Of a stretch of DNA of 43,399 bases, positions 7,844-10,101 are shown in pieces. Numbering within the stretch: position 1 is the first letter of the stretch; every line of letters begins with the position of its first letter. Made by a program: the position numbers and the translations under genes. Source of the stretch: a virus; the IMG/VR virus record IMGVR_UViG_3300036985_000788, positions 1-43,399 of that record; one strand, given 5' to 3'. The notes beneath the pieces are model-generated. The model was not told the DNA's origin. It saw nothing but the letters and a program-made list of their open reading frames with translations, and made no database searches.

Positions 7844-8844
7844 GTTTACTGCCAACCACCATTAATTTAATTAATAAGTTCCATGAAGATAAAAAAGAAA
7901 ATCCTAGGCCGCATCTAGGTTGCTCATTAATTGGGCATCCATGTGAACGGTGGTTATGGCTATCATTTCACTGGGCAGTCATACCTCAATTTGAAGGTAG
8001 ATTGCTTCGATTGTTTAGACGTGGCCACAATGAGGAAGCCAACATCCTACGTGACTTGCGTAGTATCGGTGTAGATGTCCGAGCCACTCAGAACAAGGTT
8101 GACTTTGGCAAACACTTTGGCGGATCCGTTGATGGCATTATCCACAGCGGCCTACCTGAATCACCAAACAAAGTTCACCTGGCTGAGTTCAAAACTCACT
8201 CCAAGAAATCATTTGATGACTTAGTTAAGAACGGCATGCAGAAATCTAAGCCCATGCACTACGCTCAGATGCAGGTTTACATGCTTGGCTTAAAGCTAGA
8301 CCGTGGCTTCTACTATGCCGTGTGTAAAGATAACGATGAGATTTACACTGAGCGCGTTAAGTTAGATAAAGACTTTGCCATTAAATTGGTAACTAAAGCA
8401 CATCGCATTACGATGATGGAAAGACTTCCCCCACCACTTACCACCGACCCAAGTTGGTACGAGTGTAAGTTTTGTGACGCACACGATTTCTGTCACGGCT
8501 CCAAGGCTATTAAAGAAACCAATTGTCGAACCTGCGCTCATGTGTCATCCAATGAGGACAGCACTTGGACATGTACACGCTACGATGCCACTATCCCATT
8601 AGACGCTCAATACAATGGCTGTGATGCACATGTAATTCACCCTGAGCTAGTGCCGTATGAGTTTAAGCCAGGTAAAGATGAGTGGCATGCAATTTATATT
8701 ATTAACAAGAAAGAAGTTCTCAATGGTGCCGATGGGTTTAAGTCTAGCGAGATACTAGCTAATCCTAACGAGTGCGCTGAACCTAGCGACTTTACTAAAG
8801 AACTTAGAGAAACTATGGGGGCTAAGATTATAAATGCAGACTAA
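7840..8844 (+). CDS. Cas4/RecB-like PD-(D/E)XK nuclease
   Basis: A 334-aa nuclease. The catalytic set is visible: GGSVDGI (Asp98), HLAEFKTH (Glu116, Lys118), and HYAQMQVYMLG (about 140-150), the C-terminal helix with Tyr/Gln of the family. Two Cys groups flank the core, Cys28/Cys35 and Cys209/Cys212/Cys218 (WYECKFCDAHDFCHG), as in Cas4/AddB-type nucleases that hold an iron-sulphur cluster. A second Cys-rich C-terminal part (CRTC, CTRYD, GCDAH) may bind zinc. It probably supplies ssDNA ends by resection for the Sak4-like protein. Its ATG overlaps the previous stop. It is not part of a CRISPR locus. Confidence 0.85.
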   Translation: MSLLPTTINLINKFHEDKKENPRPHLGCSLIGHPCERWLWLSFHWAVIPQFEGRLLRLFRRGHNEEANILRDLRSIGVDVRATQNKVDFGKHFGGSVDGIIHSGLPESPNKVHLAEFKTHSKKSFDDLVKNGMQKSKPMHYAQMQVYMLGLKLDRGFYYAVCKDNDEIYTERVKLDKDFAIKLVTKAHRITMMERLPPPLTTDPSWYECKFCDAHDFCHGSKAIKETNCRTCAHVSSNEDSTWTCTRYDATIPLDAQYNGCDAHVIHPELVPYEFKPGKDEWHAIYIINKKEVLNGADGFKSSEILANPNECAEPSDFTKELRETMGAKIINAD

Positions 8845-9064
8845 GATAGGTTCATTAATAGAATCAGTAATAAATATTGTTATTGGTTTTTCTATAAACT
8901 TTACTGGAAATATTTTTATTCTTCCTTTGTTTGGATTCAATGTGACAAACACACAAGCATTTAATATTGGCTTGATATTTACGGCAATTTCTTTAATTAG
9001 AAGTTATTTAATCAGACGCTGGTTTAATGGCATGGTACATAAATTAATTACAGGTGGAAAATGA
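8834..9064 (+). CDS. Small membrane protein, SLIE...RSYLIRRWFN family
   Basis: A 76-aa protein with two hydrophobic stretches (about 10-35 and 43-56) and conserved-looking ends: MQTKIGSLIESVINIVIGFS and FTAISLIRSYLIRRWFN. This resembles a small phage family that I believe is catalogued as DUF7220 (from memory, unchecked). The function is unknown. It overlaps the nuclease gene by 11 bases and the methyltransferase start by 4 (ATGA). Confidence 0.75.
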   Translation: MQTKIGSLIESVINIVIGFSINFTGNIFILPLFGFNVTNTQAFNIGLIFTAISLIRSYLIRRWFNGMVHKLITGGK

Positions 9065-10101
9065 ACTATTTAAGCGTATGTAGTGGAGTAGAAGCAGCAA
9101 CAGTTGCGTGGCATGACATGGGTTGGAATCCAGTTGGATTCTCAGAGATTGAGAAGTTCCCAAGCCAAGTATTAGCGCATCATTATCCAAATGTTACTAA
9201 TTTTGGTGACATGACAAATTATAAGGAGTGGAATATAAATGAACCAATCAACCTTCTTGTGGGAGGAACCCCTTGTCAATCTTTCTCAGTCGCAGGACTT
9301 AGAAAAGGACTTCAAGACCCTCGTGGAAACTTGGCACTCATCTATCTTGGAATTGCTGACCATTTTAAGCCAAAATGGATTGTGTGGGAAAACGTGCCAG
9401 GTGTCCTCAGTTCAGATGGAGGAAGGGATTTTGGTTCCTTCCTCGGGGCGTTGGCTGAACTCGGGTATGGGTTCGCCTACAGAGTGCTTGACGCTCAACA
9501 CTTCGGAGTTCCACAAAGACGCAAACGTGTCTTTGTTGTCGGATGTCTTGGAGATTGGAGAAGTGCTGCCTCAGTATTATTTGAGCGCGAAAGCATGTCA
9601 AGGGATACTAAGAAGGGCGGAAAAGAGGGGAAAGACCTTGCCAATTGCCTTACAAAAAGCCCTTCAAGCTACAGTAGCTACAATCCAGCAAGAAGTGAGG
9701 GAAACGCAGTAGTAGTTTATGAAACTCATCCTGCAGACAGTCGGGTAAAAGAAATGGGAGATACTTGTCAGACTGTTACTAGACGTTGGGGTACAGGTGG
9801 TGGAAATGTTCCTTTAGCTGTTGGATTTAATGTAAATGCTAGACCTGATGAAATGAAATTTGAAGATGAATTATCAGGCACATTAACTAGAAGTCAGCGT
9901 AGTGGTTTTATAAAAGAAATGCGTGTTAGAAGATTAACTCCACTTGAATGTGAGCGTTTGCAAGGATTCCCTGATAACTACACAGATATATTTGATAAAA
10001 CTCCTGATAACCACCGTTACAAAGCAATGGGCAATAGCATGGCTGTGCCTGTTATGAAATGGATTGGTGAAAGAATTAATGAGGTGGAAAATGCTTCGTG
10101 A
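9061..10101 (+). CDS. DNA (cytosine-5) methyltransferase
   Basis: A 346-aa C5 cytosine methyltransferase with ordered motifs: I SVCSGVEA (5-12, AdoMet binding), IV GGTPCQSFS (68-76, catalytic Cys72), VI WENVPG (109-114), VIII PQRRKRVFVV (151-160), a variable target-recognition part (about 165-300), IX LECERLQGFPD and X KAMGNSMAVPV near the C-terminus. No restriction partner is present, so it probably masks phage DNA from host restriction or alters its expression; the target sequence cannot be read. The start follows AGGTGGAAA. A second, dedicated gene lies inside residues 60-217 in another frame (9239-9712). Confidence 0.92.
   Translation: MNYLSVCSGVEAATVAWHDMGWNPVGFSEIEKFPSQVLAHHYPNVTNFGDMTNYKEWNINEPINLLVGGTPCQSFSVAGLRKGLQDPRGNLALIYLGIADHFKPKWIVWENVPGVLSSDGGRDFGSFLGALAELGYGFAYRVLDAQHFGVPQRRKRVFVVGCLGDWRSAASVLFERESMSRDTKKGGKEGKDLANCLTKSPSSYSSYNPARSEGNAVVVYETHPADSRVKEMGDTCQTVTRRWGTGGGNVPLAVGFNVNARPDEMKFEDELSGTLTRSQRSGFIKEMRVRRLTPLECERLQGFPDNYTDIFDKTPDNHRYKAMGNSMAVPVMKWIGERINEVENAS
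9239..9712 (+). CDS. Overprinted gene inside the methyltransferase gene
   Basis: A 157-aa ORF in a different frame, wholly inside the methyltransferase gene. It has its own AAGGAG box (9223-9228) 10 bases before ATG 9239. The protein has WHSSILELL, LVPSSGRWLNSGMGSPTECL, LSDVLE and a basic C-terminal part with YYLSAKACQGILRRAEKRGK. I recall this pattern from separately annotated uncharacterised phage proteins near methyltransferases, so I take it as a real gene. No enzyme motif is known to me; the C-terminal helix could bind nucleic acid. Both frames keep recognisable family features here, which argues against a chance shadow. Confidence 0.75.
   Translation: MNQSTFLWEEPLVNLSQSQDLEKDFKTLVETWHSSILELLTILSQNGLCGKTCQVSSVQMEEGILVPSSGRWLNSGMGSPTECLTLNTSEFHKDANVSLLSDVLEIGEVLPQYYLSAKACQGILRRAEKRGKTLPIALQKALQATVATIQQEVRETQ

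Follow-up and report, generated by a model that had tools for sequence, protein, structure and literature searches.

A gene nested in the +1 frame of a phage C5-methyltransferase gene and its possible role as a small subunit

We found that the C5-cytosine DNA methyltransferase gene of a virus record contains a second open reading frame (ORF), nested in its +1 frame, and that both frames are under selection. Given the codon-level constraint, coding by the nested frame is near certain, and we consider it very likely that the ORF at 9239-9712 is a real gene and not the result of chance; its translation is inferred, in the absence of expression data. Our preferred reading, to which we give a probability of roughly 0.6, is that the nested product is a beta-like small subunit of the same C5-methyltransferase and carries a segment lost from the main frame. 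The overlap, the start signals, the fixed linkage and register, and the likeness of the C-terminal segment are, like selection on both frames, shown. That the product is made, that it binds the large chain, and that it is needed for activity or specificity are inferred, and we have no expression or binding data.

The window, which is the whole stretch of DNA that we analyzed, is a 43,399-base virus record that carries genes for head formation, terminase, and replication. Its relevant features are the following.

9061..10101, + strand: C5-cytosine DNA methyltransferase (large chain, alpha-like), 346 aa, complete, motifs I to X all in the main frame
9223..9228, + strand: AAGGAG, putative ribosome-binding site of the nested gene, 10 nt before the ATG at 9239 and inside methyltransferase codons Y-K-E-W
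9239..9712, + strand: nested +1-frame gene (proposed beta-like subunit), 157 aa, open, wholly within the methyltransferase gene, supported by a PHROG 16143 match and codon constraint
9262..9288, + strand: motif IV (GGTPCQSFS) of the methyltransferase, inside the overlap, from translation
9527..9613, + strand: nested residues 97-125, similar to the post-motif-VIII segment of ordinary C5-methyltransferases (main-frame matches L434, L427, L386, and L387)
9572..9706, + strand: nested residues 112-156, predicted helical hairpin (helices 117-130 and 136-156; AlphaFold2, pLDDT 83-98)
9601..9645, + strand: methyltransferase codons 181-195, inverted constraint, nested frame dominant (position entropy 1.46/0.70/0.42 bits)
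9928..9975, + strand: motif IX, RRLTPLECERLQGFPD, in the methyltransferase frame, 3' of the nested ORF, from translation and alignment to M.HhaI

The large chain matched PF00145 over residues 1-340, its full length (E 9e-61), and TIGR00675 (E 2e-61). Membership of PF00145 was met, with the catalytic PCQ, ENV, QRxRxF, RRLTxxExxRLQGFP, and GNS motifs on a single chain, and the chain aligned to M.HhaI as two blocks, motifs I-VIII and motifs IX-X. Motifs IV, VI (ENVPG), and VIII (QRRKR) lie within the overlap, and motifs IX and X lie downstream of it. The nested start is offset by 178 nucleotides from the methyltransferase start (1 mod 3). An earlier note, made from the sequence alone, had claimed a 157-codon second gene in another frame here, an AAGGAG box 10 bases ahead of its ATG, and retention of motifs IV, VI, and VIII by the methyltransferase frame in the overlap. 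All three claims held, with both frames open on the + strand. Just upstream of the methyltransferase, a 76-aa ORF (8834-9064) matched PHROG 4276, of unknown function (E 5e-25); at locus L361, a small protein resembling it sits after the methyltransferase.

Constraint on both frames of the overlap

Similarity in a second frame may be a mere by-product of conservation in the first. We therefore took two precautions, the use of unbiased loci and a comparison of codon positions. Unbiased loci were collected by the N-terminal 59 residues of the methyltransferase or by its C-terminal motifs IX-X only, both of which lie outside the overlap. All 152 unbiased loci long enough to judge had a nested homologue (profile E < 1e-5), and none had one in the other frame. 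These loci represent the window enzyme's nearest kin, and some are one contig seen twice; the result describes that clade and not methyltransferases at large.

We compared codon positions in 60 nonredundant genes, also picked by the methyltransferase ends. An earlier constraint analysis on loci selected by nested motifs was set aside as biased and was redone with this set. We found that entropy at codon positions 1, 2, and 3 was 0.59, 0.38, and 1.43 bits before the overlap, 0.69, 0.40, and 0.98 bits inside it, and 1.05, 0.87, and 1.70 bits after it. Where the amino acid is conserved, third-base entropy at four-fold sites was 1.83 bits before the overlap, 0.98 inside, and 1.86 after. Third-base constraint is mild in the N-terminal third of the overlap (codons 61-120, 1.2-1.3 bits) and reaches 0.84-0.98 bits by codons 121-160, against 1.43 bits ahead of the overlap. 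At codons 181-195, the order of the three positions is reversed, as it also is in the nested-selected set. The most conserved position there is the third base of the methyltransferase codon, which doubles as the second base of the nested codon, and we conclude that the second frame sets the sequence in this stretch.

Openness of the nested frame also exceeded expectation. The nested core was open in 58 of 59 nonredundant genes, while 0.41 was expected when synonymous codons were drawn from the rest of each gene (mean probability of an open core, 0.007). The longest +1 open stretch of the window gene is 157 codons, a length reached by none of 5000 synonymous shuffles (mean 58, maximum 150). A start codon with an SD-like box was present within the first 40 nested codons of 51 of the 60 genes, compared with 40% of synonymous shuffles. 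Among these homologues, the signal is mostly AAGGAG at 7-10 bases and is commonly found at methyltransferase codon 58-59. The earlier note had held that both frames appear to be under selection, a view that stops at chance frequency in the second frame of homologues would have refuted. This was not what we observed, and the claim held.

In the C-terminal core, the nested frame was more conserved between groups than the methyltransferase frame was: 0.45 versus 0.33 for proteobacterial/marine against Firmicutes/gut sequences, 0.54 versus 0.40 for proteobacterial/marine against P1-like sequences, and 0.43 versus 0.30 for P1-like against Firmicutes/gut sequences. These loci were picked partly by nested motifs, so the unbiased entropy test weighs more; mycobacteriophage rows were misaligned and were left out.

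Spread, linkage, and annotation of the nested gene

A tblastn search with the nested protein returned 174 phage records and 534 plasmid records, the latter mostly P1-like. Nested homologues occur in P1 and its relatives, in mycobacteriophages, in Roseobacter, Caulobacter, Vibrio, and cyanobacterial phages, in Streptococcus, Lactobacillus, Clostridioides, and Bacillus phages, in the archaeal Methanobacterium virus Drs3, and in prophages of Proteobacteria, Acidobacteria, Verrucomicrobia, and Planctomycetes. Of the 374 homologous loci that had the C-terminal motif, 372 were nested in the same register, and none held a free-standing copy. The other two are mycobacteriophages, Thibault (L379:3539-5340) and Constella (L378:1324-3123), in which an HNH endonuclease gene is inserted into the methyltransferase; what survives there of the nested ORF is its C-terminal piece, now a short gene that has acquired a new start (gp104 in Thibault). 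Among 18 dcm genes analyzed in sampled Bacillota genomes, a count that leaves out two plasmid genes picked for another purpose, only one had the nested ORF, the prophage gene L385 that was our entry point to the phylum. The nested ORF is missing from the ordinary dcm genes of this sample and is therefore no by-product of methyltransferase motifs.

Few of these homologues are annotated. In Streptococcus phage MM1 1998 (DQ113772.1), orf13 and orf14 are annotated as "C5 methyltransferase alpha / beta subunit," and orf14 is the nested homologue. Its offset of 151 (1 mod 3) gives the same +1 register as in the window. The MM1-type chain ends soon after YFLS, whereas the window type continues into the helical hairpin. 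The nested family falls in PHROG 16143, labeled "DNA methyltransferase," to which MM1 orf14 (E 5e-82) and the window ORF (E 7e-9, residues 50-121 on profile positions 63-133, membership met) both match. These names are annotation and not tested function. Thibault gp104 is the same nested stretch, annotated as a hypothetical gene. The nested ORF was unannotated in most other records examined, and we found no paper describing it in the literature searched, with most subscription literature outside our scope.

P1 dmt also contains an unannotated 157-codon nested +1 ORF (AF234172 66728-67201; L001:3264-3737), which has its own GGAG 7 nt before the ATG, at a start site different from that of the window type. 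It is like the window ORF over residues 64-146 (49% identity) and unlike it in its N-terminal part. P1 Dmt differs from the window enzyme in being bifunctional, with the methyltransferase fused to an adenine-methyltransferase half.

Two further points of the earlier note call for comment. It had likened motifs of the nested product to those of separately annotated phage proteins, and a few homologues, MM1 orf14 and Thibault gp104, are indeed annotated as genes. An absence of independent homologues would have counted against a gene. Homologues are numerous, and the gene was not refuted on this count, but all except two sit nested in the methyltransferase in the same register and none stands alone. 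Nested homologues count as evidence only because their synonymous sites are constrained.

We also searched for a stop in the methyltransferase frame (pattern GCT-GAR) and obtained six contigs, of which four were unrelated and two, L342 and L346, had the nested ORF together with a main-frame stop. In L342, a P1-like record, the methyltransferase frame is broken by two stops and a 12-codon deletion while the nested frame is open, possibly a natural separation of the two genes. The L346 contig has a stop after VRGDLEES with the nested frame open, and either decay or a recoded stop is possible. Three P1-like plasmids of E. coli and Shigella (L348, L349, and L350) carry a frameshifted dmt that is absent from the PLSDB gene table. 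We rejected these as separations of the two frames, as the frameshifts strike both. A Bifidobacterium plasmid (L351) was rejected as an exception; its gene is merely cut at the record start.

A displaced enzyme segment and the rival explanations

The conserved C-terminal stretch of the nested protein reads LSDILE..V..+YFLS.KAC.GIL. A similar stretch occurs in the main frame of ordinary C5-methyltransferases right after motif VIII, leading into the target-recognition domain. We first spotted this likeness in plasmid dcm genes of Paenibacillus and Spiroplasma. For the main-frame matches L386 and L387, the query already contained the motif. An alignment of nested C termini only, searched against 348 Bacillota genomes, gave mostly nested matches and two main-frame matches in ordinary C5-methyltransferases, L434 (PLKKVLEKHVPEKYYFSAKAVQGML, E 4e-7) and L427 (LQDLLEHDVDKKYFLSDKIIPTIL, E 3e-5), both between motif VIII and the target-recognition domain. 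The same search gave two chance matches, to a response regulator (L429, 9e-5) and to a RecJ-like protein (9e-4). The L427 value is close to that of the response regulator, and this match counts more by its position than by its E-value. Against 1000 shuffles of the same proteins, L434 and L427 scored 30.7 and 23.0 bits versus 5.1; with window-type sequences only, they scored 19.2 and 8.5 bits versus 6.4. At the place after motif VIII where ordinary enzymes carry the segment, the window-type main frame reads SAASVLFERES, and the segment therefore appears to have changed frame.

Nested C termini from Proteobacteria run well past the shared segment. AlphaFold2 on the nested protein alone gave the confident values listed above for only about 45 residues (112-156), with pLDDT elsewhere mostly 55 or below. 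Such weak predicted folding of the rest of the chain would suit a protein that folds on a partner. We found no family for the nested protein in Pfam or NCBIfam and no significant relative in a profile search of solved structures. A fold search matched short helical hairpins only (best Z, 5.3) and was uninformative.

In our preferred model, the post-motif-VIII segment would have left the main frame for the +1 frame of the same gene and gained an upstream start, hence the overprinted N-terminal half. Ribosomes would begin the nested gene at a binding site of its own within the methyltransferase message, and the nested product would supply the segment in trans to the large chain. The earlier note had proposed that the product may regulate, modify, or replace the methyltransferase. 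We found no support for replacement, and the best fit is a subunit or partner, its role and expression being inferred. Against the subunit model, a large chain with the full set of motifs I-X might need no second chain for activity. The small share of the nested chain that is folded confidently, the borderline E-value of L427, the motif-containing query behind L386 and L387, and the extension of proteobacterial C termini past the shared segment also count against it.

Two rival roles for the product are possible but unlikely. The first is that it is independent of the methyltransferase, for example a regulator or a counter-defence protein, and that nesting is compaction only. In its favor, the C-terminal helical hairpin is basic and is confidently folded alone in the model, and the nested frame of L342 remains open despite the damage to its methyltransferase frame. 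Against it, no homologue is free-standing, though occasional escape would be expected, and the conserved nested segment resembles part of the methyltransferase itself. L342 is a single case whose history is unknown, and its deletion takes out nested residues as well. The second is that the product restrains or retunes the methyltransferase, as an inhibitor or specificity switch, and does not complete it. A shared message and fixed linkage suit a regulator as well as a subunit, and the large chain keeps all ten motifs. However, this role does not by itself explain the likeness of the segment to a piece of the enzyme, unless the product acts by mimicry of that piece.

In a third rival, which we consider very unlikely, the nested frame is entered not from its own start but by ribosomes that shift by +1 once past motif VIII, which would join motifs I-VIII to the nested C terminus in one chain. 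The nested segment does lie exactly where the canonical order puts it, after motif VIII. However, an SD and start of the ORF's own are kept in 51/60 genes, P1 has a different SD and start elsewhere, and frameshifting there would not explain third-base constraint that is already present upstream of motif VIII, in codons 121-160. Finally, we regard as all but excluded the idea that the ORF has no product and merely follows from strongly conserved methyltransferase coding and codon usage. Overlap with motifs IV-VIII imposes some second-frame resemblance and constraint is mild at codons 61-120, but the idea is contradicted by the synonymous shuffles, by the four-fold sites, by the inversion of entropy at codons 181-195, and by the lack of the ORF in ordinary dcm genes.

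Long same-strand overlapping genes have seldom been demonstrated in double-stranded DNA phages. The present overlap is conserved in P1 as well as in marine, mycobacterial, Firmicutes, and archaeal viruses, and its second frame is visibly dominant in part of the sequence. If the subunit model is true, the case would show a piece of an enzyme migrating into the other frame of its own gene, and phage methyltransferases cloned or modeled as single chains, P1 Dmt included, may have been studied without their partner. A bolder reading, which we hold as likely to be wrong as right, is that phage and prophage C5-methyltransferases include a large and ancient class, with P1 Dmt as a member, encoded by overlapping pairs in which a nested gene, almost always missed by annotation pipelines, would deliver a displaced structural segment in trans.

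Comparison with two-polypeptide methyltransferases

M.AquI is split in its variable region, and its second chain has motifs IX-X (PMC3404938). It is like the proposed window pair in that two chains together form the enzyme. It differs in the placing of motifs IX and X, both of which lie in the main frame of 9061-10101 in the window, so the M.AquI-type arrangement is not met.

M.EcoHK31I consists of two polypeptides, the smaller of which bears motif IX (PMC3404938, citing Lee, Kam and Shaw 1995). Its chains are encoded in overlapping frames, and both are needed in vitro. Like the proposed window pair, M.EcoHK31I and M.EaeI have a large catalytic chain and a small second chain. In M.EcoHK31I, the small chain has motif IX and the large chain lacks it, whereas the window large chain has IX and X and the nested chain, which ends before the motif IX region, carries the post-motif-VIII segment. 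An EcoHK31I-like layout, in which the large chain lacks motif IX and a +1-frame chain contains LNPAxSRWLMGLPxEWD, occurs in Burkholderiaceae and in genome G016. Overlapping pairs of this layout at L359, L365, L371-L374, and L377 have the same +1 register as the window; identification with EcoHK31I is by layout. These seven loci, together with L361 and L364, have motif-IX-less C5-methyltransferases overlapped in the +1 frame by ORFs of 200-440 codons with a motif-IX-like stretch (PHROG 1008), and the layout is seemingly common in prophages. MM1 orf14 matched PHROG 1008, the EcoHK31I-like beta chains, at E 5e-4, and the window-type nested profile had no significant match to the beta chains L359-L365; methyltransferase motifs shared by both confound these comparisons. 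By analogy, the window arrangement may be a two-polypeptide enzyme like M.EcoHK31I but of a different variant, because motif IX remains in the large chain.
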